DNA of 64,000 nucleotides from Tubiluchus corallicola (taxonomy: Eukaryota; Priapulida; Priapulimorpha; Priapulimorphida; Tubiluchidae): assembly GCA_030141605.1 (NCBI GenBank), contig JAQGDQ010000469.1, forward strand, positions 1 through 64,000, in the 5' to 3' direction. A model generated the notes under the pieces. The model saw nothing but the letters and a program-made list of their open reading frames with translations. It was not told where the DNA came from and did no database searches. Numbering within the stretch: the stretch's first letter is position 1; every line of letters starts with the position of its first letter. A program made the translations under genes and the position numbers. This document shows, piece by piece, positions 6,131 through 64,000 of the stretch.

Positions 6131-6404
6131 TAGTATTAAAAAGTTTTGTGTTATTAATTATAAACACTCTTTTTTACAATAACCTACTAGACCGGCACTT
6201 GGTGCTTTTTTAGTCTCTAATTTTAATAATTTGTATTAATTTTGTAAATATGTGATGTCATTTGTATGTAGACTATCGCTCAAATATATTTGCACCTCTT
6301 TTATACTTTGTTTATTTTGTATTTCACTTGTATTGATCAGATTACGATTTAAATTAATAAATAAAAACAAGTAATTCTTTAAGATGTGACACTGATCCTG
6401 CATG

Positions 6405-10167: not shown

Positions 10168-10681
10168 GACCAGTAACAATGGCTCACACTATCGCCCCAC
10201 ACTGCCTCCTACAGACAGCCCCTACAGCCCTAACATATCCTTCCTTTATATCAATTTCTGTTATTGTTGAAAATAACTTTTAAAAAGACAGTAAATTTGT
10301 TAAACGTTTAAATATTGTTTTTTTTTTAGTTTTTGGGAACACCGTACAAAATTGATGGTGGACTCAGTACTTGGAGCCGCGTTACAGTATACTACAAGGT
10401 CATGAAATTTTGAGGTTTCGACGTGCTTACAGCCTCAACATCACTGAGTCTGTTTCCTAGCTCCCGTCTGTTTTACACCAAGAATAGTCAATGATAAAAT
10501 GGTGATTCAGTAACCAGCAATAACACTACTTATAACGTTACTACCTCGGAGACTTGTTCTTTCCACTATCTGCTACATTTCTGGCGAACACGCCCGGGAA
10601 TAAATGTCGCATACTACCATTGCTCTACTCTGGGATACGTGTGCATACAGGCCTGGCGCATACATCAGTGTGCGTTTAATA

Positions 10682-21119: not shown

Positions 21120-23335
21120 GTCACAATTTTTAGTATAGTTCTCAATAAAGAACTATTAGTAGATCTCAATAATGAACTGTTAGTAGTTCTCAGTAATGAA
21201 TTATCAGTAGTTGTCAATAATGGACTATTAGTAATTGTCAATGATGAACTATTAGTAGTTCTCAATAATGAACTATTAGTAGTTGTCAATAATGGACTAT
21301 TACTAGTTCTCAATAAAAACTATTAGTAGTTCTCAATAATAAACTATTAGTAGTTCTCAATAATGAACTATTAGTAGTTGCCAATAATAAACTATTAGTA
21401 GTTATCAATAATAAACTATTAGTAATTCTCAATAACGAACTATTAGTATTTCTCAATAATGAACTATTAGTAGTTGTCAACAAAGAACTATTAGTAGTTG
21501 TCAACAAAGAACTATTAGTAGTTGTCAACAAAGAACTATTAGTAGTTGTAAACAAAGAACTATTAGTAGTTGTCAATAATGAACTATTAGTAGTTCTCAA
21601 TAATGAATTTATAGCAGTTCTCAATAATAAACTATTAGTAGTTCTTAATAATGAACTATTAGTAGTTCTTAATAATGAACTATTAGTAGTTCCCAATAAT
21701 GAATTATTAGCAGTTCTCAATAACGAACTTTTAGTAGTTGCCAATAATGAAGTATTAGTATTTCTCAACAATGAACTATTAGTAGTTGTCAACAAAGAGC
21801 TATTAGTAGTTGTCAACAAAGAACTATTAGTAGTTGTAAACAACGAACTATTAGTAGTTATCAATAATGAACTATTAGTAGTTCTTAATAATGAAACGTT
21901 AGTAGTTGTCAATAATGAATTATTAGCAGTTCTCAATAAAAAAACTATTAGTAGTTGTCAACAAAGAACTATTAGTAGTTGTCAACAAAGAACTATTAGT
22001 AGTTGTAAACAAAGAACTATTAGTAGTTGTCAATAATGAACTATTAGTAGTTCTCAATAATGAATTTATAGCAGTTCTCAATAATGAACTATTAGTAGTT
22101 CTTAATAATGAACTATTAGTAGTTCTTAATAATGAACTATTAGTAGTTCCCAATAATGAATTATTAGCAGTTCTCAATAACGAACTTTTAGTAGTTGCCA
22201 ATAATGAAGTATTAGTATTTCTCAACAATGAACTATTAGTAGTTGTCAACAAAGAACTATTAGTAGTTGTAAACAACGAACTATTAGTAGTTATCAATAA
22301 TGAACTATTAGTAGTTCTTAATAATGAAACGTTAGTAGTTGTCAATAATGAATTATTAGCAGTTCTCAATAAAAAAACTATTAGTAGTTGTCAATAATGA
22401 ACTGTTAGTAGTTCTCAATAGTGAACTGTTAGCAGTTCTCAGTAACGAACTATTAGTAGTTGTCAATAATGGACTATTAGCAATTGTCAATAATGAACTA
22501 TTAGTAGTTCTCAATAATGAACTATTAGTAGTTGTCAATAATGGACTATAACTAGTTCTCAATTAAAAACTATTAGTAGTTGTCAATAATAAACTATTAG
22601 CAGTTGTGTATCACGAACTATTAGTAGGTCTTAATAATGAACTATTAGTAGGTCTCAGTAATGAACTATAAGTAGTTGTCAATAATGAACTATTAGTAGT
22701 TGCCAATAATGAACTATTAGTAGTTGTCAATAATGAACTATTAGTAGTTCTCAATAAAGAACTGTTAGTAGTTCTCAATAAAGAACTATTAGTAGTTCTC
22801 AATAAGGAACTACTAGTAGTTATCAGTAACGAACTATTAGTAGTTCTCAATAATGAACTATTAGTAGTTCTCAACAACGAACTACTAGTAGTTGTCAATA
22901 AGGAACTATTAGTAATTGTCAATAATGAACTATTAGTAGTTCTCAATAATGAACTGTTAGTAGTTGTCCCCTATTGAGCTACTAGTAGTTGTCAATAATG
23001 AACTATTAGTAGTTCTCAATAATGAACTATTAGTAGTTCTTAATAATGAATTATTAGTAGTTCTCAATAATGAATTATTAGCAGTTCTCAATAAAGAACT
23101 ATTACTAGTTGTCAATAATGAATTGTTAATAGTTCTCAATAAAGAGCTTTTAGTAGTTGTCAATAATAAACTATTAGTAGTTGTCAGTAATGAACTATTA
23201 CTAGTTGTCAATAATGAACTGTTAGTAGTTCTCAATAAAGAGCTTTTTGTAGTTGTCAATAATAAACTATTAGTAGTTGTCAGTATGAACTATTAGTAGT
23301 TGTCAATAATGAACTATTAGTAGTTGCCAATAATG
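21120..23335 (-). repeat. 24-bp minisatellite, about 2.2 kb, with a 433-bp higher-order repeat
   Basis: The unit is ctattagtagttctcaataatgaa with many single-base variants (gttgtcaa, gttatcaa, gttgtaaacaa). The stretch ending at the marked unit gaaacgttagtagtt recurs: that marker lies at 21893 and again at 22326, 433 bp apart (18 units plus the extra A of caataaaaaaac). So a block of about 18 units was duplicated as a whole. Minus-strand frames reading LLRTTNSS are produced by the unit. Confidence 0.95.
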
Positions 23336-25200: not shown

Positions 25201-26008
25201 AGATCGTCAACTATATAAATCCGGTAGCCTAGAAACAGCTGTGTCAAAGCAGCATTTAATTCTCACGGAGTACGGAGTTGGTTTAAGTCAGTTAAGTGCG
25301 TTTTGCCCGAGAAAATATTACAGTAGCTAAAACTAGCAAAAATACATATTTACTGCAATTACGCTGCTATTTTTGATGCATCATTCGCCCTCCAAAACAA
25401 CGCTAAATAAACTTGACTGCTGTTTCTCAGACGTTAAAATCAAACTAAACCCTCACTGTAATATAAGCTTTTATAACATTATGTTTCTACTCTCATTATG
25501 GATATTCAATTTATTTTATTATAAACTTACAGCAAAACTTGTTTCTTTTAATTTTTCATCACTTTGTTGTTAGAGATGAATTTGAAGAACCGCTATTTTT
25601 CGTTGGGCAAGATTTTATGACGTTATGAGTACAGTGACGAGATCACCAAAGATCTGTAAACAAACATCAGTAACCAAAGACTCTTTGTGCACCGCGTACG
25701 TCATTCTCGCTCACTCGTCCCAAAGACGTGAAACATGGCGATCTTCACAGCAACGCACGCATTCGAAATTCGCCAGTAAAAGATAAGCCATTTAATTTAT
25801 AAGTTTCTTTTGTTTAGTAATTACTATAACTTCTTTGTGTAATCATAATAATGCTTTGAAAAAACTTCAATGACTGTCATGATTATATAGGCCTTTAAGG
25901 ACTTTTGTGTATATGGCACTTTGAAATAGCAAATACTTATTTAAACCAATCGCGTGATGGTAATGCAATCCATCTCATAATCAGTGCAGATTTCATACTA
26001 TATTTCAG
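25200..26008 (+). other. Upstream flank / intron of the sulfotransferase gene
   Basis: It ends in a splice acceptor, tatatttcag, at 26008. No upstream coding exon is certain. A 66-codon frame at 25373-25573 contains a hydrophobic stretch (YNIMFLLSLWIFNLFYY) that could be a membrane anchor, but it has no clear donor site and I do not assign it. Confidence 0.4.
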
Positions 26009-26991
26009 GGTACCCAAGAAGTGGTTCTACATTTGTCGGTGACATTTTCAGCAACCATCCCGAAGTGTTTTATATATTTGAACCTGCTTGGTTTGAAGAA
26101 GCCCAGATTTTTGGTCCAGGAGATGGGAAAGGACGACGTAGTGGACCCTTAACAGTGATGACCCAGAAGTTGATAGGAAATCTTGCCACGTGCAATTATA
26201 CTGGCGAACACATGTTGAATTTTATACGCTATAACGAGAAAAGACGTAAAACCTATCATTCTCGAGCACTTGCTAAGGAAAAAGGGTGTGATGACGAAAA
26301 CTTCGGAAGCAGAGTAAACAATTGCTGGGCAGCTCCACGTTCTGGCGATTTACATCTTTCTCCACTAGAGTGGACAAAAGTTTGCCAAAATTACAGTACC
26401 CATGTCTACAAAGTTTTTCGCCTGCGTGTAGTAGACGTCTTGACGTTACTGAATCTTCCTGGATATAACGTAAAAGTTTTATACATGATTCGAGATCCAA
26501 GGGCAATTATAAAATCTAGAATGCAGTTAGGGTGGCTGAAAAATCTCACTGGTGAGGCATATGGTCAGGATAATCCATCCACACTATGCTATGACATGAT
26601 GGATGACTATGAGAGTGCACTAAGATTAAATTTACCCAGTGACGTAATGAAAATTATAAAATATGAGGATATAGCATACGACCCTATTACAAAAGTAAAG
26701 GAACTTTTTGAATTTGTTGGACTTAATTATACAGAAAATATTGACAAATACCTTAAGAAGAATGCCCTAGCAAAGACAGGCGGAGCAGGTGGAATTGGTA
26801 CAAGTAGTAAGAACTCTACAAAAACAGCAAACGCTTGGAAGGACAAACTAACTGAGTCAGAAATAGTCATGATTGAAAAACAATGTGGAGAATTCTTAAA
26901 TCGTGCTGGTTACAAATTTATGCACATGAAAGGCAAATCCTACATATCACTTTTGCGAAATTTAAAAATAGCAAATGGTTATATTCGGTAA
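26009..26991 (+). CDS. Carbohydrate (GlcNAc/Gal/GalNAc 6-O-type) sulfotransferase, 3' exon
   Basis: This exon encodes about 328 residues and ends in TAA at 26989. It transfers sulfate from PAPS to sugar hydroxyls and is expected in the Golgi lumen. The 5'-phosphosulfate loop is YPRSGSTF right after the splice site. The 3'-phosphate site is IRDPRAIIKSRM (26488-26523). Family landmarks KYEDIAYDP and AWKDKLTESE...EKQC follow. There are several NxS/T sites (NYT, NYS, NLT, NYT, NST), as in a lumenal enzyme. The exon opens with GG after AG, so the intron is phase 1. The N-terminal cytoplasmic tail and membrane anchor must lie in an upstream exon that I cannot identify. No internal stop or frameshift is seen, so the gene looks functional. 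The exact sugar specificity cannot be told. Confidence 0.88.
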
Positions 26992-44885: not shown

Positions 44886-45539
44886 ATCTCTTCTTCTTAA
44901 AAAACAGAATCATGAACAATAGCTGACCACCTCTTCTTGTACATGTACAGTGCAAGTGTAGAAATCTCAATTAATATATTACATTGTTACTTTATACAGT
45001 GTCGTATATTCAAATTTGAAAAAATACAAAACTTAGGACAGTCAGCGCATTTTTAATTAATTTTTGAAAGCATCTGGTTTTTCATGATGCTTCGTCTATT
45101 GGCAACATTCATCTATCTTTCTTATCTAAGTAAAAATAACGTAATCATGTATAAACTCACTTACGCAATATATATGGTATGTTTAAGTATAATTTGCACG
45201 CATGCGCTGTGCTGCTTGTAAGTTTTGAGTACCGGAGCAGCTAGCCAGCTAGAGCCCTGATTGGCCATTGCGAGGTTCACTCCCCCTGGTTGATTGGTGC
45301 TTCCAACTTTGCAAGTTATATAAAAACAACTATTTGATTAAGTTTAAAAAAGGTACAAATTATCCTAACGAGGTTATCTTTTGTACACTTTTATTCTTTT
45401 AATCAGAATGTCAACTTTTACTTGCTTTTACTGCCTTTAAATTTTGATAATTAATAGACAATTGAAATATTGGACATACAAGTCTGTAATGACTTCAAAC
45501 CCTTTTTTCCAGCTTTAATAATTTTATAATTTTTAATAT

Positions 45540-45640
45540 AATGTAAAATATGTATTATATTTCATAATGTGTCTATACGTGAATATGATAATAATTTTTA
45601 AATATGAATATATTTAAAAAAATAAAAAATTAAGGTTAGC
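45540..45640 (+). repeat. Direct repeat, copy 1 of 2
   Basis: gtattatatttcataatgtg, tgaatatgataataattttt and gaatatatttaaaaaaataa recur at 47165-47270, about 1.6 kb away. Confidence 0.75.
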
Positions 45641-45756
45641 CCGATCAAAATATATCCTATTAAAATCACATTACATGCTTAAATTAGTTTGGTTATTCTA
45701 GCATTATTATATGTTTTCACTTTTGCTTCAACATATAACACTGTAGTAATCTTATT

Positions 45757-45905
45757 GCACGTTCAGACTAGCGAGTTTTCTCTCGGAGAGTAAACTCGCA
45801 AGTGTGAACGGATTTGCGAATTCTGTTGGCAAGGCTAGTTTTTGCAGACTCTCCCTGAGTTGTGCGTGAGTTGACACTCAGTAAAACTAGCGATAGCTAT
45901 CGTGT
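45757..45905. mobile_element. GCGAGTT-rich MITE, copy 2, incomplete
   Basis: Starts gttcagactagcgagttttc and contains aactcgcaagtgtgaacgg like copy 1, but the conserved right end is not seen. Confidence 0.55.
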
Positions 45906-45909
45906 AAGC

Positions 45910-47160
45910 ATATATGCACTCGTGAATTTTACACACCCAAAAGGACTTTTAATACGAAAGTTAAACTTAGATAGAAAAACTGGCTGGCTATCTTCATAAT
46001 TTGCCTACAGCAATTATAACTAATCTTTTTCTTTAAAATGTGCATTTATCCGTATTATGGGGAAGGAATAAATACAATTCAATACAAAACGAACGCTGAA
46101 GAGACAGTATTCAACCACAATCTCGTGTGGGTAAACTGGATGATTTATCACTAGGTTTTTGTGTAACACATATTACTAGGTTAGTTCATCACTTCATTAT
46201 TCTAACGACGAAACGATTGCAAGCAAATGTAGTGTTAAAAGAGTTTGTGGGTCACTTGTTTTTAAAATTCGTTAAAAGCTCTGTTTCCATTGCAGGAATT
46301 TAACATTTTTGTGATTAATATCGTTGATATCACATTATAGTTGTTTATCTCAGCAACTTATGATGGCTTCAGGATTGAGTAACAAACTGGTAAGTCTATT
46401 GCAGGTAGGAGGATCATTTACTTCAATGTTTTAAAGTTGCACTAAAGTAAAGTAATCAGTGAAACATTAATGATAGCTGGCTACGTTTAGATGATAAAAA
46501 CTGCAATTGCACTTAGACTTGTTTGAACTTGGAATTGTTGAGCTTGGAATGTGTTTTAGCTTCAGCAGATCTTGATGGAAATAAGGGACGAGCTGATCAT
46601 TCTCGTTCATTTGTGACGTTTTACAGCAGTTTGCTGGAATGAATTGCTCTTATGTGCATGTCGTAAAAGCACAATGTTTTTTCTTTGCATTAGTTTTCCG
46701 CCTGCATAATGTCTAATCCAATGGTTCCTAACCTTTTACTAGCCAAGTACGCTTTAGAAATTCAGCGATCTGCCGCGTGCTCCTTAACATTGTTTAGCAA
46801 TATGAGTTTCAAGAAAACATTTTTACTACTATGATTTAACTATACAAGCGTGATTTAATTGTACAAGCAAAACCGATAAACGAAACACCAAATTCAAGAA
46901 CAAAATACAAGAAAAAAGACGATCGGATGTCAAATCAGAAGACAAACTTGCAGTCGAACTTTGAAGTAGCTTCAATGGCCGCCTCATTGATGCGCTTTTC
47001 CGAAAACCGCCTACCCCGCCTCCGCCATCCGTCAACGCATTTGTTGTGCCAAACGTCTATCTTACATAATAAATTAACCCCGTTATAACGACAGGTAGTG
47101 CGCAGTGAATTACACAAAAAATGCTGTTGTGTGGCAAAAATAATGACCTTTTAAAAATAC
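45910..47160. other. No secure gene; possible hAT-type end at 46725
   Basis: caatggttcctaacctttt at 46718-46737 resembles the ends of hAT-derived repeats (CAGNGGTTCNCAACCTTT). No transposase is visible, and the rest is AT-rich. Confidence 0.35.
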
Positions 47161-47164
47161 AAAC

Positions 47165-47270
47165 AAATATGTAAAATAAGTATTATATTGCATAGTGTGT
47201 CTATATGTGAATATGAAAATAATTTTTGAATATGAATATATTTAAAAAAATAAAAAAATAAAGGTTAGGC
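47165..47270 (+). repeat. Direct repeat, copy 2 of 2
   Basis: Partner of 45540-45640, about 85-90% alike by eye. Confidence 0.75.
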
Positions 47271-47840
47271 AAATCATATGATGCTGCTAAATTCAGACTA
47301 CATTATGGTTTGTGAATTTTTGATTCATGAAAGATTAGATTGTAGTTACTAGTAGTTTTTTCAACGTTTATTTTTCTAAGAAAACATGAACGTTGGTTGC
47401 ACAATTGAACAAAGAATGCATTATCAATTTTGGCTGCTTTTTAAATTAAAGTAAAAAATCAGTTGTTTTTCACTTTCGCAAATCAGACCATTGCTTTGGT
47501 GGAGTTTATATTCGAGCAATTAAAACTGAATTAAAAAGTTGTTTATGTGTTGCTGAACAGGCCTACTTACTTGTTTATGTTTATGTCGTGAATAAATTTA
47601 TAAATCAATAGTTTGGTGATAAATCTCATGCCTCCCTGATTTCATAAGATAAATTTATTGCTTGATAGAGAAACTCACCCTGCTGATAAGCACGGATTTA
47701 ATGCGATGCAAATTATTCCACAGGTGTGTTTTTTATCGTTTACTGAAGGTAAACAGGTGTCTGTTTAAGTGAGGACATTATTATTCTTTATAGCCGTATG
47801 CAGAGTTGCACTTAATTAACAAAAAGTCGGCAATAGGCAA

Positions 47841-48257
47841 ATGTCTTTTGAAGATGACTTTATGGCCATCACCAAAGCCTCTACCTGCGCTCGAAGACAT
47901 CGGATGAAGAGAAGTTCTAAAGAGTCGTCGACGACGGGGAAAGATCCCACAGAGCAAAAGAATTCGAAGGCCACCTTGCTGATCGTAAATCGCATGGCAG
48001 GGGATACCATGGATCCAGGGATGTCACCTGTTGCCTGTTTACCGACTGGCGCGAATTTCGCAAGGTCAGCTCTTCAGGATATAAGCTCTGAGTTTTGGGA
48101 ACACGAGTCAGTCACGAAGTCACACACGCATCAGAGAGGAGAATGTGACAGAGAATCTGAGACAGCATCGTTTGACACCAGCGTGGAGAGTTCTGCGTTC
48201 TCAGCAATAGACTGGGCACTGGATCAACGAGAGTCTCATAACACTATCTGGAGTTGA
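47841..48257 (+). CDS. Small unrecognised protein, 138 residues
   Basis: An uninterrupted frame from MSFEDDFMAITKASTCARRH to SHNTIWS, hydrophilic, rich in Ser, Thr, Glu, Arg and Lys, with no membrane segment or signal peptide. Base composition is higher in GC than the flanks. A polyadenylation signal AATAAA lies at 48503. The whole 1.25-kb segment (47590-48850) is duplicated at 49141-50425, where the frame is broken. That makes a real transcribed unit plausible, though the frame itself could be incidental. I know no family. Confidence 0.45.
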   Translation: MSFEDDFMAITKASTCARRHRMKRSSKESSTTGKDPTEQKNSKATLLIVNRMAGDTMDPGMSPVACLPTGANFARSALQDISSEFWEHESVTKSHTHQRGECDRESETASFDTSVESSAFSAIDWALDQRESHNTIWS

Positions 48258-48502
48258 CCAAGTGTACTGGGTGCATTGTGGTCAGTCCACCAAGTTAAGT
48301 GATCTTAACACATTTGTATCTGAGAGTAACTCTGCATAACTGTAGTTCACATTGTATTAAGCACCATAAGTGCAGCATACTGAATAATTGTCAAGTGAAT
48401 TGCATGAGCATCTTTCTGGAGCTATACATTAATTGTAAACGCCTACAAGCATATAAGGGCAAATCTTGTACAGCAATCTAGATAGAGTAAATTCTGTAAA
48501 TG

Positions 48503-48508
48503 AATAAA
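48503..48508 (+). promoter_or_regulatory. Polyadenylation signal AATAAA
   Basis: AATAAA about 245 bp after the stop of the 138-residue frame. The same place in the duplicate has AATAAA at 50068, so the signal was present before duplication. Confidence 0.5.
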
Positions 48509-49140
48509 GTCGATTCACTTTGACACGTTAAATAACGAGTTCTTGTATGATTAAGAGCGTTCAAAGTAAAGCAACACTAAATCCGAGATACGAACTTGAG
48601 AGATTCGCAGTGTATTAATTAACTTAAGCTCAACTGCGGGAGTGACGCTCGATAGCTTGAGGGAAGAAGACCTTCACTCACAACGCAAGGTCAAAGTAAC
48701 AGTCTTGAAGGACAGTATCATTGCCTGATAGACTTAACTAAAGTCCTCGGAGCCAGGTGATAAAATCACCTTGTAGTGAACAAACAAAAAGCGAATCTGT
48801 TAAATCAATATACAATCTATAGATATAAATCACGATTACACTATACGATAAGAAGCAACGTGATATTTATGTTTGTGCTTATTTGTTTACGTTTATACAG
48901 TTTATACGTTTATAAGTCTGCCAGAGCTTCCACTGGCACTACATATTCTATCAGACACAAAAATTACAAAAATTGACGAAATTTAAACTTCTAAATCTGC
49001 ACCCTGACAATATGCTGTTTATTGTTTTAGGTCATTTTTAGTTGATCAATTTTCAACTAGTCCCGGGGATTTACCTGCAGCAGCTGGTTCGTGTTGAGTA
49101 TTTGGACAATTACAGGATGATCCAGGCGTCATAATGTGGT

Positions 49141-50425
49141 GAATAAATTTATAAATCGATGATTTTCGATATTTTGGTATGAAATCGCATGCCTCCCTGA
49201 TTTCATGAATAAATTTACAAATGGTGCAAGAACTCACTCAGCTGGCAAGCCCGAATTTAATGAGCTGTGAAAGCGTAGGATCCATGCAAGAAGTAAGATT
49301 TATCGTTTACTTAAGGACACCAGGATGCTCAGGATAATTAGCTAATATTAGGTTGAGACGGATGTACCATTTATTATAGCTATATGCACAAGTTACTCGT
49401 AATTAACGAAAACTCTGCGAGGTCACTGTTTTTTGATGAAAAGAGGACTAATGGTCTTTACGGGTTACGATGACTTCAAGGATGAGAGTTTCTAAAGAAG
49501 AGTCACAAACCTAAAGAAATTTGATGTCCTCCCTGTTGACCATAAAATAACTATTGCGTGCGACGTTGAAATCATACGAGGTTACTTTGTTAAGATATAA
49601 GCTCTGAGTTTTAATAACCCGGCGCTCTTTCCATCCTATCGCACTGGAAGAGAGACACGTGTGTGTGTGTGCGACGAAACACACGGAGGGCGACCTGACA
49701 CAGGAGATTGGGACAGCTTGAGAAGTTCAGCGTAGACATCTTTCTGCGTTCCTAGGATAATCTAGGCACTGGACAACGAGAGTCTCATATCAACTATTGG
49801 AGTTGGCCAAGTGTACGGGGTACATTGTGGTCAATCCGCAGAGTTAAGTAATCTTAACACATTTGTAAACTGAGAGTAACTGTGCATATCTGTAGTTCGC
49901 ATAAGTTCACATTGTACTATATGATAAGTGTAAAGAACACCTTAGGTGATAGAATTGAAGAATTGTTCAGGGAGATACTTTTGGGAGCTATACACTAGTT
50001 GTACGCGTCAAAAGCGCATAAGAACAAATCTTGTAAGCTACCTAGAAGCAGTAACTATTGTAAAATCAATAAAGCAATTCTCTTTGACATTTAACGATAG
50101 AGTTAATGTATAATATCAGGGTGTTCAACTCAAGCAACACTATTTCCGATATACGAATCTGATTGGTTCGCTTTAAACTAACTAGCGCTCATATTGCGGG
50201 AGCGGAGCTAGAAAGCTTGAGGGAAGTAGACCTTTTCTCACAACGCGAAGGTCAAGGTGAAGTCTAGATAAGACACGATCATTGCTTGCTAGACTAATAT
50301 CTAAAGCCCTCGGAGCCAGGTGAAGAATTCGCCTTATAGCAATTAGAAATTAAGCGAACATATTAAATTAAAATTCAATCTATACGATATATAGATTTAA
50401 GTCACCTTGCACTATACGATCAAGA
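49141..50425 (+). pseudogene. Tandem duplicate of the 47.6-48.85 kb unit, frame destroyed
   Basis: It is colinear with 47590-48850: gaataaatttataaat, catgcctccctgatttcat, gatataagctctgagtttt, aacgagagtctcata, ttggccaagtgtacggggta, AATAAA at 50068, gagggaagtagacctt, ccctcggagccaggtgaa and cactatacgatca. The region matching the 138-codon frame (about 49416-49815) has several indels and stops. The two copies are about 290 bp apart, head to tail. They are not LTR-like, as no TG...CA ends or internal region exist. Confidence 0.75.
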
Positions 50426-50594
50426 TTAACGGAAACATTAGGTATTAAAAACGGGAAGGTGATAATAACATCTGGATTCAGTTTTGTAGGCATGATCACT
50501 GGCATTACGATTGCTGACAGCAAACTAGATGCAGACGCAATAAGTACGTGACTTTTGATAATTTTTCAGATCATTTGTAATCGATATAACCTAC

Positions 50595-50793
50595 CGGCGT
50601 GTTGATACTAGAGACTCTTCTCGCGAGACTTCTCTCTTAGAACTAGCATGTACGAACGGCTTTGCGAGTTCTCTCGGTAAATTACTGCTAAGTATCTCAG
50701 AGTTGCTGAGAGTTTTCCTGCCAATTTCTTGCAGACAAGCTCTACTCACTGCGAGAACTCTCCAGAGAGAACTCTCAAGTTTGAACGCGCCAT
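50595..50793. mobile_element. GCGAGTT-rich MITE, copy 3
   Basis: Begins tactagagactcttctcgcg and ends aactctcaagtttgaacgcg, with the gcgagttctctcgg motif inside. It shares the outer gtttgaacgcgccat end with copy 1. Confidence 0.6.
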
Positions 50794-50984
50794 AATATCA
50801 ATCTCACGGTTCCAGCAGAAGAAGTAACAGAATTCTTTAATTGCCTTGAAACATTGGCAAAATTAATTAGTTAAACGACATAATTCTGTTTTTGTCTAAA
50901 TGGATCATTTCTCTTCATGTTAGTTAAAACGCAGTAATGTCTTTTAAGAAGAGCGAACTTAACTGATCTAAACAAGAGGGGACA

Positions 50985-51190
50985 CAGCAAAAACATTTCA
51001 AAAAATAACACAGAAAATAAATAAAAAAGATGACCTTTCAGCCCACCTCTAGAGACAATTTCTTTCTGATGGAGCCAAATTTTTAATGATGTTTTGTGCT
51101 TTCTTCTTGTGCTTTTTGTCCTGTGTATTCCTGTTTCTTAATGATTGTGTTAGTTGTTTTTCATACTTTTTTGCTGTGCTTTTTGTATGA
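50985..51190. mobile_element. Foldback-like element, CACAG(C/A)AAAA family
   Basis: Left gacacagcaaaaacat and aacacagaaaataa; right tgtgctttttgtcctgtgta and gctgtgctttttgt. These are inverted arms around a short centre. Third member of the family at 19665 and 44765. Confidence 0.5.
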
Positions 51191-51263
51191 CAGAGTGTTC
51201 ATTGCATAAGTCTTGAAGACGTGCTACTATTACCACACTCTAGAAAGTAGTTTGTTTTTTCAG

Positions 51264-51568
51264 ACATGCTGAGGATGTCCTGCTTAAATAGTGACCAATC
51301 TCATCTCTTCAACTGGGGAGATGCTGGTACGGTGCTTGTAGGAGGACTAGTCGAGATGCCGTCTACATGCCCGTTTCCAGAAACAGAAACCCGTAGAGTT
51401 TGTACGCTCACCGAGGAGCAAATTAACAAACTTGTTAACTTTATTGTCGATTCAGATGAACAAACAGATTTACTCTTTTACTTAGTATTTAAGAAACTGG
51501 AACAATTAAAGTATTATGACTCTAGTAGAGCTTACTACGGCAATAGGTGTGATAACAGGCAGAGTTAA
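51264..51568 (+). CDS. Possible terminal exon, unrecognised
   Basis: A strong acceptor (gtttgttttttcag) is followed by a 100-codon open frame ending at 51568. It includes FNWGDAGTVLVGGLVEMPST and CTLTEEQINKLVNFIVDSDE, with balanced composition, which looks coded. It lies 1.2 kb upstream of the pentraxin-like exon array, but I see no domain link and no upstream exon. Confidence 0.4.
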
Positions 51569-51784
51569 ATTTTTGTATACCACCTCACGTAGGTTACTTA
51601 CTCCAAGTAACCCCGCGCCAAGTACTTACTGGCATTCTTCGTCTTGTTCTTGTCGTATCAAGATCAGATCTGGCAGGTAGGGTACGCTGTGAGGGGGGGG
51701 GCGTTAGGCGGTGTTTGCAAAGTTAGCAGCGTTGAGCCTTGTTCTATTCAACGCAGGATTTGTATGGTGTATGACTAATTAAGG

Positions 51785-52640
51785 GTTGAGAAAAGGGAAT
51801 TTTACAACATGTCTCAAAGAAAAACATGTCTTAAAGTTATACAAGTTAGCTTACGCTTAGCTGTTTGAAAGACTCGTGAAAATGGAAAAGAAAGTTCTTA
51901 ATAATTTAAAATATTTGTGCTCAGGGGTGCATCAAGACTTTATGACGCCACACATCTCTATTGTGAACTTATATTTCGGCTTATGTAATGAGCAGATTAA
52001 ACGATGGTGTATTAGAAACACTATTAACCTAGTCCCTCCATCTCATTAATAATTACATGTATTTGCATAGCCCTTATGGTCAAGCAGGCTGCGCAATTGC
52101 TTGTTGTGTAATAGCTTGCACATGTTCGTCATGTGGTACTTATATAAAAGCTGAACTGAGTAACTGCCTGTGGTGTATTATAAAATGCATCTTTACAAGA
52201 ATACGAATATGAAAAGACATACATTTTCCGAGGAGAATAAGAATTTTTTCTAAACGTCCCTCAAACTTTAGGGCCCTTACTATAACCTAGTTAACCTATT
52301 GGTTAATTCCCTCTTGTTCCCGCTACCTGGTAAAACAGCCCTGCATCGCCATTCCATTTTGCACCATTTCTTCACCAAAAACACATTATTGATCTTATTG
52401 ACAAAAATAAAGTAATTTGTACTTTAGCTTAGCTATTGAAGAGTGTGCTATTAATGCTCTGATTATTCTTTCGAATTTTACATAATGTCATCTAAACTTG
52501 TAGTAAACGACTTGCCATTACAATGGTTGCGCCAAAATTTACGTGTTTTATTATAGAGCATTGCTGTTAACGCAAGTTTTGTATCCAATAAGAAAGCATG
52601 TAAGTGGTACAAAATTTCAAGACGAATTTAAGCTTTATCC
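51785..52640 (+). repeat. Dispersed ~600-bp repeat family, copy 4 (interrupted)
   Basis: Diverged copy of the family at 3280. 51785-51950 matches the middle and 52320-52640 the right half, ending gtaagtggtacaaaatttca. About 370 unrelated bases lie between. Confidence 0.6.
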
Positions 52641-52958
52641 ATGAAGTGTGTTTTCTTGCACTTTTTAAAACACAAACTAGCAAATTAACATGTGATCAGA
52701 TTAAAGTAAGCAGAATGAAAGAATAATAGCTGCTTTTTACGGATGAGAAATCTTGTTATGGATGAGAAAATCCGGCACAGTTTGTGTTTAACATGGAAAT
52801 CAGGAGGAGAGATGAAAATCTTCTTCCACAGAGTGCTGTTAGGTAAGTGACGAAAAAAACAAGTGAATGTACTATTTCTTCAGCGTGCTTACATATAGTG
52901 TTATTCTATACACTAACTCGTTACATATTCCTTCTGAACTGAAACCAATGATTTACAG

Positions 52959-53072
52959 AGTTAATACCTGGATTTATCAATCTTGTTATGGGTGAAAAAA
53001 TCTGGCAAAGTTCGTGTTTAATATGGAAATCAGGAGGAGAGCTGAAAATCTTCTTAGACAGAGTGTTGTTAG
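52959..53072 (+). CDS. Pentraxin-like mini-exon, unit 2 (open)
   Basis: 114 bp, phase 1 at both ends, 37 full codons with no stop. It has EKIWQSSCLIWKSGG and KIFLDRVLL, so the Trp is intact and DG has become DR. The donor is GC type (AG|GCAAGT). Confidence 0.5.
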
Positions 53073-53880
53073 GCAAGTGACGAAAAAACAAATGAACGTG
53101 CTATTTCTTCAACGTGTTTATATATAGTGTTATTCTACACAATAACTCATTATATATTCCTTCTGAACTGAAACCAGTGACTTACAGAATAATACCTGGA
53201 TTTATCAATCTTGTTATGGATGAGAAAATCTAGCAAAGTTTGTGTTTAATAAGGAAATCAGGAGGAGAGATGAAAATGTTTTTAGACGGAGTGTTGTTAG
53301 GTAAGTGACGAAAAAAAACAAACAAATGAACGAGCTATTTCTTCAACGTGCTTACATATAGTGTTATTCTATACAATAACTCGTTATATATTCCTTCTGA
53401 ACTGAAACCAATGATTTACAGAGTTAATACCTGGATTTATTAAACTTGTTATGGATGAGAAAATCTAGCACAGTTTGTGTTTAACATGGAAATCAGGAGG
53501 AGACACGAAAGTGTATTTAGATGGAGTGTTGTTAGGTAAGACACGAAAAAAACAAATGAACGTGCCATTTCTTCAACGTGTTTATACATAGAGTTATTCT
53601 ACACAATAACTCGTTATATATTCCTTCTGAACTGAAACCAATGATTTACAGAGTTAATACCTAGATTTATCAATCTTGTTATGGATGAGAAAATCTAGCA
53701 CAGTTTGTGTTTAACATGGAAATCAGGAGGAGATATGAAAATGTTTTTAGATGGAGTGTTGTTAGGCAAGTGACGAAAAAACAAATGAACATGCTATTTC
53801 TTCAACGTGTTTATAGATAGAGTTATTCTATGCAATAACTCGTTATATATTCCTTCTGAACTGCAACCAGTGACTTACAG

Positions 53881-53993
53881 AATAATACCTGGATTTTTTA
53901 ATCTTGTTATGGGTGAAAAAATCTGGCAAAGTTTGTATTTAATATGGAAATCAGGAGGAGAACTGAAAATCTTCTTCCACAGAGTGTTGTTAG
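53881..53993 (+). CDS. Pentraxin-like mini-exon, unit 6 (open)
   Basis: 113 bp, one base shorter at the 5' end (acag|aataatacc instead of acag|agttaatacc), so its entry phase differs from units 2 and 9. The frame is open with EKIWQSLYLIWKSGG and FFHRVLL; the DG pair is HR. GC donor. Because of the phase difference it could not replace unit 2 or 9 in the same transcript without a frameshift. Confidence 0.4.
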
Positions 53994-54567
53994 GCAAGTG
54001 ACGAAAAAACAAATGAACGTGCTATTTCTTCAACGTGTTTATATATAGTGTTATTCTACACAATAACTCGTTATATATTCCTTCTGAACTGCAACCAGTG
54101 ACTTACAGAATAATACCTGGATTTATCAATCTCGTTATGGATGAGAAAATCTAGCACAGTTTGTGTTTAACATGGAAATCAGGAGGAGACATGAAAGTGT
54201 ATTTAGATGGAGTGTTGTTAGGTAAGACATGAAAAAAACAAATGAACGTGCTATTTCTTCAACGTGTTTATAGATAGAGTTATTCTATGCAATAACTCCT
54301 TATATATTCCTTCTGAACTGAAACCAATGATTTACAGAGTTAATACCTGGATTTATAAATCTCGTTATGGATGAGAAAATCTAGCACAGTTTGTGTTTAA
54401 CATGGAAATCAGGAGGAGATATGAAAATGTTCTTAGACGGAGTGTTGTTAGGTAAGTGACGAAAAAAACAAGTGAATGTACTATTTCTTCAACGTGCTTA
54501 CATATAGTGTTATTCTATACACTAACTCGTTACATATTCCTTTTGAACTGAAACCAATGATTTACAG

Positions 54568-54681
54568 AGTTAATACCTGGATTTATAAATCTCGTTATGG
54601 GTGAAAAAATCTGGCAAAGTTTGTGTTTAACATGGAAATCAGGAGGAGACATGAAAGTATATTTAGATGGAGTGTTGTTAG
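54568..54681 (+). CDS. Pentraxin-like mini-exon, unit 9 (open, best match)
   Basis: 114 bp, symmetric phase 1-1, acceptor atgatttacag, donor AG|GTAAGA. The open translation has EKIWQSLCLTWKSGGD and MKVYLDGVLL, keeping W, C-x-T-W-x-S and Y-x-DG of the pentraxin/LamG core. Of all units this is the one most likely still usable. Confidence 0.55.
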
Positions 54682-56199
54682 GTAAGACACGAAAAAAACA
54701 AATGAACGTGCTATTTCTTCAACGTGTTTATAGATAGAGTTATTCTATGCAATAACTCCTTATATATTCCTTCTGAACTGAAACCAATGATTTACAGAGT
54801 TAATACCTAGATTTTTCAATCTTGTTATGGATGAGAAAATCTAGCAAAGTTTGTGTTTAACATGGAAATCAGGAGGAGAGATGAAAATGTTTCTAGATGG
54901 AGTGTTGTTAGGTAAGTGACGAAAAAACAAATGAACGTGCTATTTCTTCAACGTGTTTATATATAGTGTTATTCTACACAATAACTCGTTATATATTCCT
55001 TCTGAACTGAAACCAGTGACTTACAGAATAATACCTGGATTTTTCAATCTTGTTATGGATGAGAAAATCTAGCACAGTTTGTGTTTAATATGGAAATCAG
55101 GAGGAGAGATGAAAATCTTCTTCCACAGAAGTGTTGTTAGGCAAGTGACGAAAAAACAAATGAACGTGCTATTTCTTCAACGTGTTTATATATAGTGTTA
55201 TTCTATACACTAACCCGTTACATATTCCTTCTGAACTGAAACCAGTGACTTACAGAATAATACCTGGATTTTTCAATCTTGTTATGGATGAGAAAATCTA
55301 GCAAAGTTTGTGTTTAACATGGAAATCAGGAGGAGAACTGAAAATCTTCTTCCACAGAGTGTTGTTAGGCAAGTGACGAAAAAACAAATGAACGTGCTAT
55401 TTCTTCAACGTGTTTATATATAGTGTTATTCTATACAATAACTCGTTATATATTCCTTCTGAACTGAAACCAATGATTTACGGAATAATACCTGGATTTA
55501 TCAATCTTGTTATGGATGAGAAAATGTGGCACAGTTTGTTTTAACATGGAAATCAGGAGGAGACATGAAAATGTTCTTAGACGGAGTGTTGTTAGGTAAG
55601 TGTCGAAAAAAAACAAGTGAACAAGCTATTTCTTCAACGTGTTTATATATAGAGTTATTCTACACAATAACTCGTTATATATTCCTTTTGAACTGAAACC
55701 AATGATTTACAGAGTTAATACCTGGATTTATCAATCTCGTTATGGATGAGAAAATCTAGCACAGTCTGTGTTTAACATGGAAATCAGGAGACATGAAAAT
55801 TTTTTTAGACGGAGTGTTGTTAGGTAAGTGACGAAAAAAACAAATGAACGAGCTATTTCTTCAACGTGCTTACATATAGTGTTATTCTATACAATAACTC
55901 GTTATATATTCCCTCTGAACTGAAACCAATGATTTACAGAGTTAATACCTGGATTTATCAATCTTGTTATGGATGAGAAAATCTAGCACAGTTTGTGTTT
56001 AACATCGAAATCAGGAGAGAGATGAAAATCTTCTTCCACAGAGTGTTGTTAGGCAAGTGACGAAAAAGCAAATGAACGTGCTATTTCTTCAACGTGTTTA
56101 TATATAGAGTTATTCTACACAATAACTCGTTATATATTCCTTCTGAAGTGAAACCAATGATTTACAGAGTTAATACCTGGATTTATCAATCTTGTAATT

Positions 56200-57800
56200 G
56201 ATTCAGTAACTCGTGGAAAAGATACCTTATATTTGAGATGCAACTTTATTGCAATTACTTGCTGAAATGCCTCATGTTCATTACAAATTACATTTTGATA
56301 ATGTTATGAGTTGGAGTTGGTTACAAAAACACGATGAACAAACGAAGATGCATTTGCGACATTACTCCTTTTTTATTGCCAGTGAACAAAAAATGACAAA
56401 ACAAACATCGACATTACTTCCACCTCTATAACAACTAAGTAACTAGGTCAAAATCAAGTTACAGCATACAGGTGAAAAGCCAAGCTGGCGCATAATTAGA
56501 ATCGGCAGGCGGGCTATAACAATAATCTGTTGACATCACTGACTCCTTTGAAAAGACTTGGAGATATACAAGAATGGGTAGAGCAAAATAGGCAACTGCC
56601 ATTTGTAAGATCAGAAAGATTAAAAAGAAAAAGCTCGGGGCAGTTTTGAAGACAAATAGTGTGAAAACAGTGGACCTCTTCTGGTATGATGGTATGATAG
56701 CTTTGTCAACGTTGCACCTAACAGTAGTGAAACTAGGCCACTAAACAAAGCAGAAAGATTGTCATTGGCTGCTAAATGATCAGCCTATAGTGATTAGTGA
56801 ACATTATCGTGGAAAGGTTGGCACTGATTTTGCCATGGATCAGCTTCAGCAGTGCTCCGACATTTGTGCCGCATTAACTCGCTCAGTGGAAGGGCCAGTG
56901 GAATTGTATATTCAACGATCATTCACACACAAATACCGTGTTCATTCTGATGGATATGAGCGTATCGTGGGTATGTTGCAGACACTTTTTTTAGTCATTT
57001 GAGAAGCAGAGTCGGGTTTCCTCCACTTCAGACCCAATATCTATATTCGCCGTCTGACTCTCCTGCCCTTGAATCAGCGACGATTATGCTCATGACTACA
57101 CAGACATCCCCCGACGTCCTGTACAATGGGTTGGTGTTTGAACCGCGTTACAAAGCCGGAAACATATATACTGTAATGGGTGTGCCAATTGTAATTTCAC
57201 TAGTCTGTTTACACTCACTGTGTGTAGGTATTACCTAATTTAACTATATATAGTACATCAGGAAATCAGAAGAATTTACAGCAGTTGGTGTCTGTAGCCT
57301 GCAACATGGGTCAAATTGTTCCGGTTACCAGAAGATTGTCTTTCTCTATGTCTATGAATTCTGGGGTGTGTGAATAATATATATATATAAAGAGGAGGAA
57401 CTGATGGAAAAATAAAAGAGGCATAGGAACAATCCATAAATTAAGGTCACTTTGAATAATGCAAGTATTACTTGGTAGCCAACCAGAGGTACCTTGTGAA
57501 ATTGCGAATGTATACTGGATGTTTTAAGATTCGCCAACACAGGAAGAAAGGCTCTTTGGTCTGGAAAACCAGTAATTTGACGCATCCATCGTATTGGGCA
57601 CAAGTCCTAAAAAACATTTGCTCACGCTTTACACTGTTAATGAAAGCTTGGAACTGTGTACTGTTTAAGGCTAGTATGGATCAGCAGAATGGTATTGAAA
57701 AATTAAGAATTCAAAGTAGGAGGAAAAAGATAGTTATGTTCACCTTTGGTTAGATAAGAGGCTTACCCTAGCCGCCCATTTTACTGAAAGTTCTTTAGCC
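56200..57800 (+). other. Unrecognised, partly protein-like patches
   Basis: After the array, broken frames look coded in places: 56249-56431 (MPHVHYKLHFDNVMSWSWLQ), 56770-57002 (NDQPIVISEHYRGKVGTDFA, then MDQLQQCSDICAALTRSVEG) and 57003-57170 (PSDSPALESATIMLMTTQTS). Frames shift between patches. They may be remnants of one gene or mobile element; I recognise no family. Confidence 0.35.
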
Positions 57801-59700
57801 TGCTGGTTCGAGTTGACAAGGACAAACCATGACCGTTACAATGTATTGGCCCTTACTACTACTGCTGCTACTATTACTACTACTACTACTGTGACCGGTG
57901 TTGGAGGGATGAAAACACTTATTTTCAACGATGAAGACGTAGTGGTAATGGTACGACGGATGACGGCAACTACCGATTGTGAGCTGGGTTCAAATTCACA
58001 TTGACTTTTCGAATTCTGGTCGAATCTTAGCAAACGAAGGATGACGACTAGTGATTATGAAGTGTGTTCAAATTAATGTGCACGCTTAAGACACACATTA
58101 TGGCAGCAAAGCAAGATTGTATATTTAATTGTAGTTCAAAAGTATATGACCCTAGGTTTACCCTTCTACTAGCGCCGTGAACTGCACGTGTCTCGGGAAG
58201 TAGGCTTTTGACAGACGCACTGGGATCGTTCTCCATTTATTTTAAATAAAATTTATAAAAATTTGAATAATTTTAAAATGAATCCAGATAATGAACAACC
58301 ACATGCCGCCGCACAAGGGCATGATCATCGTCAGATAGCAGGAGTTGCCGGTGAAAAAAACGTCCAAAACCTCATAACGCTAGCCACATGTTTACAGACT
58401 TTATCCATTGAAAATGTATCAATCAATATCATCAAGTATTGGTATTAAGGGCACACAAATATATTATATATTGAGACCACTGAGATATTCTTTGATAGTA
58501 GTTCTCCGTAGTAAATCTTAAAAACACAATTAGATATAAATCACATTTTTTTCTCCTTTGGCAGCCAAGACTGACTGTGGCACCCCAAAATATCAGAATA
58601 CAGAAGTTTGTACGTTTAGATGTTCAGTTACATATCCTCATTATATCTGCAGTCTGCGCCCCATTAGATACCTTTTCTAAACCAAAACACAGAGTTTAAT
58701 AAAATATTTGAGTTCTGATTGGATAAGTGATTAAGCTGACAGTTATCTTTTCCTGGCAATCACCTTGTGCGTTTTTCATTAGTACATTTAAATTTGTTAA
58801 TAGGTGTTCATGGAAGACAAAGGATGACAGTAATGCGGGTTGTAAGGATTTTAGGTATTTTTAGACAAAAAGCATAAAGTGATAATTAACAATGGTGTTA
58901 AGTCCAAGAATCTTTAATCCCACAATGTGTAAATTAACCATTTATTAACAGTAATGAATGTAGATTTTTGAAACGAGTTTTTAGCTCCTGGATTATGTGG
59001 CTTGTCTTGCCTCATGTTAATCACTTACTTTTTCTATAAAGTAGCTATACAGAATATACTGCACTTACCAATAACAGTTTTTTATTGTTTAGAAGATTTT
59101 CCACAACAGCTTAGCCAGCAGTTGCTACAACAACGATGGAGATATTCTAGCTTGGGACAAACATTCAATTGAAACAAATGGTGAAATGAGTTTTAACAGT
59201 CCAACTGGTTGTCCACATAGTGGAGAAACTCCAGGGATGTGTGTATCGAGGGATCGAGGGAGTCTTTCTTTGATGTGGTAAACTTATTGGCATCTTTGGC
59301 AAATTACATCCTGCCAAATAGCGATTTCACTCATCGTAAGATAGACCGGGTCAGAGGTGGTCCAAAGAAGATAAAAGAAAAGGCTTGTTTCTCAAGAAGG
59401 GGATAGACTACATGATTCTGTTTTCGATAAGCTGTCACAAGCAAAGAACAAGCGGGGATTACGCATGCGTGAGTAATATGGTTGACGCGGAATTTTATTT
59501 CTTCCCATAAGCATGTCAAAAAATTGTTGTTCTTGAGGACTAGAATGTTTTGCAATTTATTTTTGAAATTTGTATTTGCTATGTGTTACTCTGTGTTTAC
59601 AGTCTTTGTTAAGTTAGAGCTGAGTGTTTGAAACTTGAGCTTTCCAACGTTTTTCGTTTGTGACAAATTTGTAATATTTCTATTGTTTCTAATGCTTTCA
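57800..59700. other. Mostly non-coding; small frame at 58278
   Basis: A tact microsatellite (57850-57890) and two diverged direct copies of a ~75-bp unit (57955-58075) with ggttcaaattc, which resembles a poly-III B box. A start codon at 58278 opens MNPDNEQPHAAAQGHDHRQI for 57 codons; unrecognised. 59100-59340 may be the decayed 5' part of the LINE that follows. Confidence 0.35.
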
Positions 59701-61312
59701 AAATGAGATACATGCTTATCTTTTAATGGATATGTTGATTAATAACTACAGAGTTACACTTGGAAATATTTATGGTCCCAATAATGATAAGCCAAGTTTT
59801 TTCTCAAATATTTCCAAAGAACTAGAACGTTTTGAGAACTTAAGTATAATACTGTGTGATGATTGGAACTGCGTTCAAAACTGTAGGCTTGATACAGCAG
59901 GATACATTCATGAAAATAATAATAGAGCCAGGCAAAAATATTTGGAACTAATGAATATGTATGAGCCAACAGATATTTGGAGATTCTACTGTCCTGGAAT
60001 AAGGAAATATATTTGATTTAGGAAAAATCCAGTCAAGCAAGGCCACCTGGATTATTTTATAGTTTCAAATCATCACCAGTCATGTACTGAAATACCAGAA
60101 ACAACTATTTTACCTGGCTATAGGTCAGATCATTGGCCTGTATTGGATTGAAAATGTATGAAGAAAAACGTGGCAAAGGCTTTTGGAAATTTAACAGTTC
60201 TCTGCTAAAGGACTCTGTGTATGTAGAAAAAATCAAACAATGTATAACTGATACAATTTGTGAGTATTCTTGTAATAGATCAAGTGCCACAGAAAATCAG
60301 CAGGAAGTACCATTTAAAATAAGTGACCAATTATTTTTCGAATTATTAAAATTAAAAATTAAAGGAGAAACCATTTCCTATTCAGCTTTCAAAAAGCAGC
60401 AATTACTAAGTGAAGAAGGGGAACTAGAGGCCCAAATAAGTGAACATTACAGCCAAGAACCATTATCATTAGATGATATGAATAAATTAAATGAATTAGA
60501 AAAAAAAATAAAAGTTATTGCGTGAGCAGAAAGTAAGAGGCGTTATGATAAAGTCCAGAGCAAGACGGGGTCGAATTCAGAAAAAAGCCTTCAAGTTTTT
60601 TCTAGGTTTAGAAAAAAAGAAATTATGTAAATAAATGCATTTCAAAGTTAACAACAGCCAATAATATAGAGAACTAATAAAATGCAGTGATATTTTAGAA
60701 GAGCAAAAATCATTTTTTCTTCACTTTATACGAGCCAATTAAATGACGATCAGTTCGAAAATAAATATGATTTATTCGGAGAAAATATGACGAGATGAAC
60801 TAGTGAACAAGCTTGTTCATGTGAAGGGCCCTTAACTATTGATGAATTGTGGAACGCTTTAAAATCAATGAAAACGAACAAATTGCCTGGGACGGATGAG
60901 TTTACTCCTGAATTTTACAGTTCCTTTTGGAAAGACATATATATTTTTCTTTTAAGATCTCTTAATGAAACATTTACTGTCGGAGAACTAAGTAGTGATA
61001 ACTTAAAAAAGTTCTTAAAAAAATTGGAGACCTATTTTTTTATTTAATACGGACTACAAAATTCTCACTAACTGCTTAGCCCAACTTTTAAAAACGTTAT
61101 TGACGTGTTAATCACTGGCACTCAAACAGGTTTTTTTAAAAGGTCGATACATAGCTGAAAACACAAGACTGTTGTACGACTTATTTATTAGTTTACGCAG
61201 AAAAAAGAGACATTCCCGAGACATATTGTTCTTAATTGATTTTGAAAAGACGTTTGACACACTAGAGTGGAAATTTATACACGAAGTCTTAAACTTTTTA
61301 AATTTTTAAATT

Positions 61313-62242
61313 TTGGTGATAATTTTCAAAAATGGATCAGAATTTGTCATAATAATATTGAAAGTTGTGTACTTAACAACGGGTCGTACAGTAGCTTCTT
61401 CAAATTGGGGCACTATGCTGGGTGACCCCATCTCATCATACATTTTCATATTGTGCGTGGAGTTTTTAGCTAATGCGATTAAAATATGTAAGGATGTTAA
61501 AGGTACTGATGTAAATAACAACGAAATAGTCTTAAGCCAATATGCGGATGATACCGCAGTTATTCTCAATGGTTCATCTGCTTCACAATTTGCAGCCCAT
61601 CGCATAGTAAATAATTTTGGTAAAGTTTCTCGGTTAAAAATGAATTCTAATAAAACAAAGGCAATTTGGTTTGGTGCCTTAAGGGGTTCCCAAGCACTTA
61701 TTTGTAAAAATTTACAGTTGAACTGGGCGAATGATATCTTTACAGTCTTGCGAATAAAATTTGATCTGCCCAATTTGGAAAATATTTTTGATCTGAATTT
61801 GAAAGATAAACTTGTGGAAATTCGAAATCTTATAAAAGTTTGGTCCTGGCGATCACTTACGATCTTTGGGCGGATAACTGTTTTTAAATCATTAATATTG
61901 TCAAAAATAATCCACTTGTTGTCATCCCTCCCAATTGTGAATTACGAAAAATTGAAATCCACCGAAAAATTTGCATATAAGTTTGTATGGGGTGGTAAAC
62001 GAGAAAAAGTTAAACGAAAAACACTCATGTCCGAAATTTCAGAAGGCGGTGCAAATATGGTGGATTTGGAGTCGTTTGCCAAATCCTTGAAATATAAGTG
62101 GACTCACAGGTTAATGACAACAGATGGAACTTGGCAAGAGGTAGCAAAAATATTCTTAGAAAAACTGGATAGAATGCCATTTTGGAAAATGGAAAAAACT
62201 TTTTTAGTAGAGAAGAGTGTAATGCTTGGGAATCCCTTCTAG
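61313..62242 (+). pseudogene. Reverse-transcriptase and C-terminal part of the L1/Tx1-like LINE
   Basis: 309 open codons. The first 35 are in a shifted frame; the true frame upstream reads FGDNFQKWIRICHNNIESC and NNGSYSSFFKLG, and a small deletion around 61415 removes the expected RGVRQ before GDP. After it come GDPISSYIFILCVEFLANAI, SQYADDTAVILNGS (catalytic Asp pair kept), KTKAIWFGA, LTIFGRITVFKSLILSK and the conserved WGGKREKVKRKTLMSE...GGANMVDLESF block. Catalysis would fail because the polyprotein is broken upstream. Confidence 0.85.
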
Positions 62243-62764
62243 CAAGAAGTAATTATATGCTGGTGTGAAATATTAAGAAATCCGATGACTCTAACGGATT
62301 ATTTAAAGCAGGCATTGTGGTATAATAATAATATAAAGGGAATATTTCAAACAATGGTGGGCGCAAAATACAAGTAATGTTGTGATTTTTGGAAAGTTTC
62401 CGTGTAAAAATTTCCTATGTTTAAATAAGACCATTTTAATAGTAAAATATTGTATGTGGTGTACTCGAAGCAAATTACAATCACTGAATTTTAGTCATGT
62501 AGTGAGCTGTATTAAATATATGTGTAAGCTGGAGAAATATGCAGGTGCCAACCTTGAGATGCTTGAAAAAGGGAGTACTACATAGTATTAATATAATACA
62601 GAGAAAAGGGAGCAGCAACGAAGGCAAAACACCTATAGGTATTTCACAAGTTCCACAAGTGTTTATCTACCTTTTTAACAGTTAATATTAGTGATGCTAA
62701 TAGACTGACAAATGTATACGTATCAAGTCATTTTATAAGGCTATACAAACTAATAAGCAAATGT

Positions 62765-63060
62765 TACTGACAGTGTTACAAGCGAGAATTTCTCGAAACG
62801 GAACTGCAACTAACTCGTGGTTATTTGTTCAGGTGGCGATAACAAAAAAGTACTAATCACTCGCTCTGAGACCTCTATGAACTGCTTCACGAATGTTCTT
62901 TTTTGTACGTGGTGCCTGATCAAGTTTTGCCAAAAAAGAACCGGGAATAAGATTCCGATTTGGCACTCTATACCCGCCTTCACAAAGTTTCTTGAAAATT
63001 TGTTAGATGATTTATGCGTAATAGGCTTACTGCCATAAGAGACAAAAACAAACAAACAAA
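62765..63060 (+). mobile_element. SINE-like dispersed repeat with (AAAC)n tail, copy 2
   Basis: Matches 20060-20395 (caagcgagaatttctcgaaa, taactcgtggttatttgttc, agacctctatgaa, ctatacccgcctt, tcacaaagtttcttga, gcgtaataggctta, acaaacaaacaaac). It lies within the insertion that splits the LINE. Confidence 0.72.
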
Positions 63061-63326
63061 CTGTCTTATGAAATTTTAACGGTTTTTTGTCACGCTGTCA
63101 TGTCTAAGTCATGTCACGGCTACTAATTTCTCTAACGAGGTCAGTGTGTTGGTGCTCCAAAGCCCGCAAGTTATGGACCAAACGACAGACACTATTCCAA
63201 AAGAACATAAACCCTACATCTGCAGGGGCATAAGAAGAAAGCGCATACATATCAAGTCGTACGACATAATAATTTTGTGACCAATTTCCTGATTTAAAAC
63301 GAACCACTGTGCATTCGAAAACATAG

Positions 63327-63470
63327 AATAGTAAAATATTATATATGGTGTACTCGAAGCAAATTACAAACACTGAATTTTAAAAGTGCAGTGAGCTGTA
63401 TTAAATATATGTATAAGGTGGAGAAATATGAAGGTGGAGACAACCTTGGGATGCTAGAAAAAATTGAAGC
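63327..63470 (+). repeat. Second copy of a ~140-bp LINE 3' segment
   Basis: atagtaaaatattatatatg, ggtgtactcgaagcaaatta and gtgagctgtattaaatatat match 62438-62575. The second copy continues into the natural LINE C-terminus (EKIEASWLPL), whereas the first is cut off. Confidence 0.8.
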
Positions 63471-64000
63471 TAGTTGGTTACCCTTGAAATATATATTCTA
63501 ATGATTTACTGAACAACCAAAATTGCCAGAGTGTAGTCAAAGCAAATTTACTGATTGCAACTAATTGCATTCATTCATTTCCTTACATTCAGTTAATGCT
63601 AATATTTATTTATGTTATTCTAAATGTCTTGGTTTTCGTAATTTGTAAAGTATGTTTTGTATTAAATAAAATGTCAAATAAAAAAGAAGAAACGATATAA
63701 ATAATTGTACGTAAAGCGAATTTGAGAGTTTGAAGAGCAGAGATGCTATCGGCATCGGTGCAGCTAACAACATTTCAATTTATGAACACAAAGTTCTCTT
63801 TCAACATACTTCTTATTAGAATTCTTTGGATATTATCATATTTAATTTGTTGTTGAATTGGTTGGTATTGGTCTCGTTTGTAATCATTTATTATTAATAT
63901 AACGTTGGTGCTGGTAGTTGTTTTTATTTTAATCTAAGTGTCATTACACTGTTATTATGTGTTAAAATCTAACCTGCGTTTGGTTGAAGATTCTCGCCAA

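Follow-up and report, generated by a model that had tools for sequence, protein, structure and literature searches.

When a stretch of DNA holds many head-to-tail copies of what looks like one exon, the question arises whether a gene draws on the copies as alternatives or whether the exon has been multiplied as a repeat. The question is raised here by 15 tandem units of about 229 bp, made of a segment that we call exon X and an intron, at 52748..56195 on the forward strand of the Tubiluchus corallicola sequence analysed (the window, 64,000 nt). The original prediction, made from the letters of the DNA, left two options: a source of variable recognition surfaces, or a satellite that grew out of a single exon. 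Our analysis upholds the second and makes the first, judged from sequence, unlikely, since the array is very probably an exon-derived tandem repeat of single origin that is now most likely neutral. A literature search returned no paper dealing with this locus or with an exon X array.

Structure of the array and condition of its exons

A single array was called by TRF at 52749-56202, with a period of 230, 15.1 copies, 90% matches and 1% indels, in agreement with the predicted number and size of the units, which stand head to tail at one length. The array was also confirmed to begin and end at the same point within the exon. Among units 2-15, the exons differ by 9.8% on average and the introns by 7.5%; therefore, the units are not echoes of one copy.

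The exon ends were anchored on acceptor-like and donor-like patterns restricted to AG or GG and to GT or GC, respectively; within these bounds the acceptors of the array read AG in 14/15 and GG in 1/15, and the donors GT in 9/15 and GC in 6/15. The sequence AGGCAAGT is a good GC donor. The 14 complete exons measure 114 nt (seven), 113 nt (five), 112 nt (one) and 111 nt (one), and unit 1 (52748..52842, GT donor) is truncated at its 5' end, the first part of the exon and the acceptor being missing. The predicted exon of 113-114 bp, with an acceptor and a donor in each unit, was thus right as regards exon-like segments and too uniform as regards their lengths, the truncated first unit, the GG acceptor and the GC donors.

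At the Trp codon, TAG stands in 10 of the 15 units, TGG in four (2, 6, 9 and 13) and CGG in unit 1. Read in the frame anchored at the exon ends, only units 2, 6 and 9 and the truncated unit 1 are open. As predicted, units 2 (52959..53072, GC donor) and 9 (54568..54681, AG/GT) are both open and 114 nt long, with phase 1-1; unit 9 is the best preserved and equals the usual family exon plus one base. Unit 6 (53881..53993) is open at 113 nt, the usual length in the family, and has a GC donor, Tyr for the conserved Cys and His-Arg for Asp-Gly. Unit 13 (55484..55595), with a one-base deletion, is 112 nt long and carries the GG acceptor. All of these exons lie on the forward strand.

The parent exon and its gene family

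Searches of the genome (G000, 343,548,820 bases in 2344 contigs) related the array to exons elsewhere. A two-unit query gave 22 matches, eight in the array and the others at 14 places on 13 contigs (15 first-look candidates, all scored), and a single-unit query matched 11 other places, with DNA E values down to 5.6e-35. Exon X is present once per read stretch at all 14 other places (L009-L022), with a length of 113 nt in 12, 116 nt in one and 110 nt in one, which is 2 mod 3 in 14/14. Twelve of these 14 relatives are open, stops being found in L011 and L017, and the aligned splice-site columns show AG and GT in 14/14; L016 is open, but it has Leu at the Trp codon. Beyond the exon itself, the array and the relatives match over about 11 bp on the acceptor side and 47 bp of the donor intron. 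Each unit is thereby a homologue of an exon that, elsewhere in the genome, occurs singly between introns and is open in most cases. The family loci are alike over kilobases (comparisons of L012 and L014), as in a duplicated gene family, and their protein comparison yields an upstream exon, X, an exon X+1 and a terminal exon.

Concerning the fold, Laminin_G_3 (PF13385) matched unit 9 at E=0.14 with 12.7 bits, against a curated cut-off of 27.6, and gave no match to unit 2. Exon X of the single-copy relative L014 matched positions 75-101 of the same profile at E=1.6e-4 with 22.3 bits, again below 27.6; no exon tested reached the cut-off, which a 37-aa segment can hardly reach. The Pentaxin profile, which was included in the Pfam scan, gave no match at E up to 10. 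Of the pentraxin-type or LamG fold originally proposed, the LamG-like identity of exon X is supported by the single-copy relatives, the pentraxin side found no match, and for the array units themselves such a fold is weakly suggested by profile. The relatives resemble genes with the concanavalin A-like LamG_3 domain in matching profile positions of about 75-101, whereas the array holds one segment and no whole domain. In the whole genome, at least 111 matches to PF13385 were found at E up to 1 among 120 candidates scored, and some of these places exceed the curated cut-off. No place on the contig of the window is among them, a silence that means little because only C162 of the 14 exon X places appears. 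Taken from sequence similarity, the picture points to a large family of LamG_3-type genes here.

In the parent exon X, one base completes a codon at the start and one begins a codon at the end (phase 2-1). As the exon is asymmetric (2 mod 3), joined copies would therefore shift the frame. The 114-nt units are symmetric, mismatched to the family phase and mixed with 113-nt units. The proposal that any number of units could be included without a frameshift consequently fails, given the asymmetry of all 14 relatives, the unit lengths of 111-114 nt and the stops in 10/15 units.

An asymmetric exon would suit the choice of exactly one unit per transcript, namely a working arrayed-exon system with mutually exclusive splicing and variable LamG surfaces. 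In one comparison given in PMC5740500, 20 genes (71%) with validated mutually exclusive exons had frames incompatible on joint inclusion. Such clusters (PMC5740500; Dscam, PMC4835542) resemble the array in having tandem homologous exons with splice sites and in the asymmetry of the parent exon, and the exon-like units here mostly keep AG and GT or GC, with units 2, 6 and 9 open. They differ from the array in that the units here mostly have stops or changed length and share no phase, and in that no gene using the units was found. With TAG at the Trp codon in 10/15 units and complete exons of 111-114 nt, the shared open frame of a mutually exclusive cluster is absent, and the 113- and 114-nt units would require different upstream phases. 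Only unit 6 is both of the usual length and open, yet it has a GC donor and an altered Cys and Asp-Gly; the X+1 exon was also not found in the window by family profiles, a weak point considered below. We therefore regard a working system of this kind as very improbable. It is hardly to be expected, either, that splicing still uses units 2, 6 and 9, as alternative or terminal exons that would vary the recognition surface of a LamG-family protein, the units with stops serving to switch to short forms.

The stops and length changes speak for an exon free of coding constraint; measures of diversity and selection leave the question undecided. In the array, exon diversity is 1.31 times that of the intron (bootstrap 0.78-2.18). 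In a family control of 12 loci, the mean difference in exon X was 20.9% versus 10.5% in the intron over 90 bp upstream and 12.4% over 250 bp downstream, and exon X differed more than the downstream intron in 60 of the 66 pairs. Since the exon excess is also found in the mostly intact family, the ratio in the array is no argument for neutrality. The comparison of dN/dS among units, which had been proposed as a check, does not decide the matter: pN/pS fails to separate the array, at 0.58 (0.32-1.41, a wide interval), from 10 of the 14 family loci, at 0.63 (0.44-0.91). Within the family (45 pairs, 10 loci), pN is 0.243 and pS 0.387, both above the intron value of 0.124. That exon X has diverged more than the introns may reflect an exchange of introns among the copies; selection favouring differences between the exons is possible as well. 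The case against a cassette system is built on the stops, the exon lengths and the splice sites.

Surroundings and origin of the array

Beyond the array, the window holds long open frames for a rhodopsin-type receptor at 10604-11617 (PF00001, E 5e-37) and a sulfotransferase at 25981-26991 (PF00685, E 1.6e-17), and a reverse transcriptase match at 61310-62242 (PF00078, E 2.4e-8) that is part of a retroelement. Other tandem arrays lie at 1705-2819, 6400-7670 and 21136-23335, with periods of 36, 64 and 24 bp, respectively; the first of these sits within a 429-aa open frame. Rfam at gathering scores gave no match in the whole window, and ARAGORN reported no tRNA.

Dispersed repeats stand near the array on both sides. 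On the left they cover 51953-52305 and 52316-52665 (genome search; 1653 first-look candidates for query 51900-52400 and 2501 for query 52306-52760, 40 scored for each), and on the right 56302..56521 (231 first-look candidates, 40 scored). The stretch 51953-52305 had been considered as a family intron, and this was rejected because it is one of the dispersed repeats. The right repeat splits a fragment (56255-56302 and 56522-56817) that is common to C716. This contig was rejected as an empty site of the array, as only two right-flank fragments are common to it and the window at 45000-64000; exon X was not found in C716, where the best profile match had an E of 0.015 over 12 positions.

Repeats on both sides would be consistent with a tandem repeat that forms the core of a mobile element, and oyster Helentrons do carry tandem-repeat cores (PMC7492417). 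The arrays borne by Helentrons in Crassostrea gigas, as described there, are likewise short, have monomers of a few hundred bp and lie among dispersed repeats; the monomer here, in contrast, is an exon of a host family with its intron, at one locus, and no carrier element was found. All 15 close matches of the 231-nt unit query lie at the array itself, and the four short pairs of inverted repeats detected in 51500-57300 do not bracket it. The array and its flanks are not repeated together in the genome, high-identity units occurring only here and the flanking repeats elsewhere (40 candidates scored for each). A mobile-element core is thus an unlikely explanation, and the exon-derived repeat remains the preferred one.

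Upstream of the array, a gene of the LamG family ends in an open terminal exon at 51263..51568 (forward strand, start approximate). This exon gave 66 matches at E<=0.1 including itself, among which some contigs look like mutual repeats; 11 of the 66 have the same open-frame length and lie directly beside a LamG_3 match (C1821, C1813, C16, C43, C1023, C2286, C1468 twice, C876, C548 and C2085). A paralogous stretch on C1813 (L025) corresponds to four blocks within 45541-51546 of the window at 82-92% DNA identity.

About 2.9 kb downstream of the array, a relic of a family terminal exon lies on the forward strand at 59093..59278 (profile E 2.8e-13), its frame broken after about 59248. Its closest relative is on C828 (61%), followed by C2102 (49%), and the L009-L022 group reaches at most 46%; at the DNA level it matches L027 and L028 and none of L009-L022 at E 0.01. 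C828 (L027) was rejected as the parent locus, since the exon X profile gives there only a 7-residue match with an E of 0.36 in 9.9 kb. Family profiles of the upstream exon and of X+1, which are of low reach, gave best E values of 0.37 and 0.11 in the window, and they found nothing convincing in the upstream LamG-family gene or in its paralogue L025 either. Because the profiles miss that gene, the absence of an upstream exon and of X+1 is weak evidence, and diverged exons may be missed.

The relationships among the copies were examined in an unrooted tree of exon and donor intron (14 units and 14 loci, 27 different rows), in which units 2-15 stand on one side of one branch (support 99/97). A 128-nt, mostly intron query matched elsewhere only through positions up to 41-47. 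Based on this branch, on the confinement of close matches to this locus and on the intron query, we infer one origin followed by local multiplication. The donor copy of the array may have been lost, may have diverged or may lie outside the genome sequence searched.

The relic and the array lie on the same strand and in order, as would be expected if the array had arisen in place, by exon duplication in a local gene whose terminal exon survives at 59093, and not by insertion. The two flanks should then contain the missing halves of the exon, which was assessed with 500 shuffles and three references. Resemblance to the exon start is weak in the left flank, whose score was reached by 13, 43 and 121 of the 500 shuffles (the third reference aligned elsewhere); in the right flank, with 225, 123 and 222 of 500, no resemblance to the remainder of the exon is seen. 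The array, moreover, starts and ends in mid-exon. The relic is nearest to C828, and the DNA of C828 and C2102 matches the relic and not the array; the array DNA finds L009-L022 and not L027 or L028, the loci to which the terminal exon downstream is most similar. As the flanks lack convincing missing halves, insertion of a multimer would be at least as likely as duplication in place. The latter, a sub-case whose odds overlap those of the preferred reading, is possible though doubtful.

For the exon-derived repeat, the following course is proposed. The 229-bp unit would have formed from a single exon X together with intron on either side, about 47 bp of it on the donor side, and may then have been multiplied locally to 15, either through unequal exchange or because a multimer was inserted. 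Subsequently, the units would have drifted, with variants shared among them, such as TAG at the Trp codon, the GC donors and a one-nucleotide difference at the exon start, possibly through exchange between units. At present, the array is most likely neutral and probably has no function.

Tandem multiplication within the family

A second tandem array was found on contig C34 at 121000-130900 (L029), made of another piece of the family, in which X+1 and parts of the terminal exon recur. A 300-nt reference occurs there in seven copies, which are 64-100% identical and spaced 974-1595 bp apart; TRF with a period limit of 500 did not call this array. Each of the six C34 rows compared contains one stop. 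Together, the C34 array and the exon X array indicate that pieces of the family have been multiplied in tandem more than once.

These data show that a tandem repeat can mimic a cassette-exon system by eye, because it inherits both its splice sites and its fold motifs from the exon of which it was made. They also point to a large LamG family in which exon X is more divergent between members than the introns are, and pieces of which have been tandem-multiplied at least twice.
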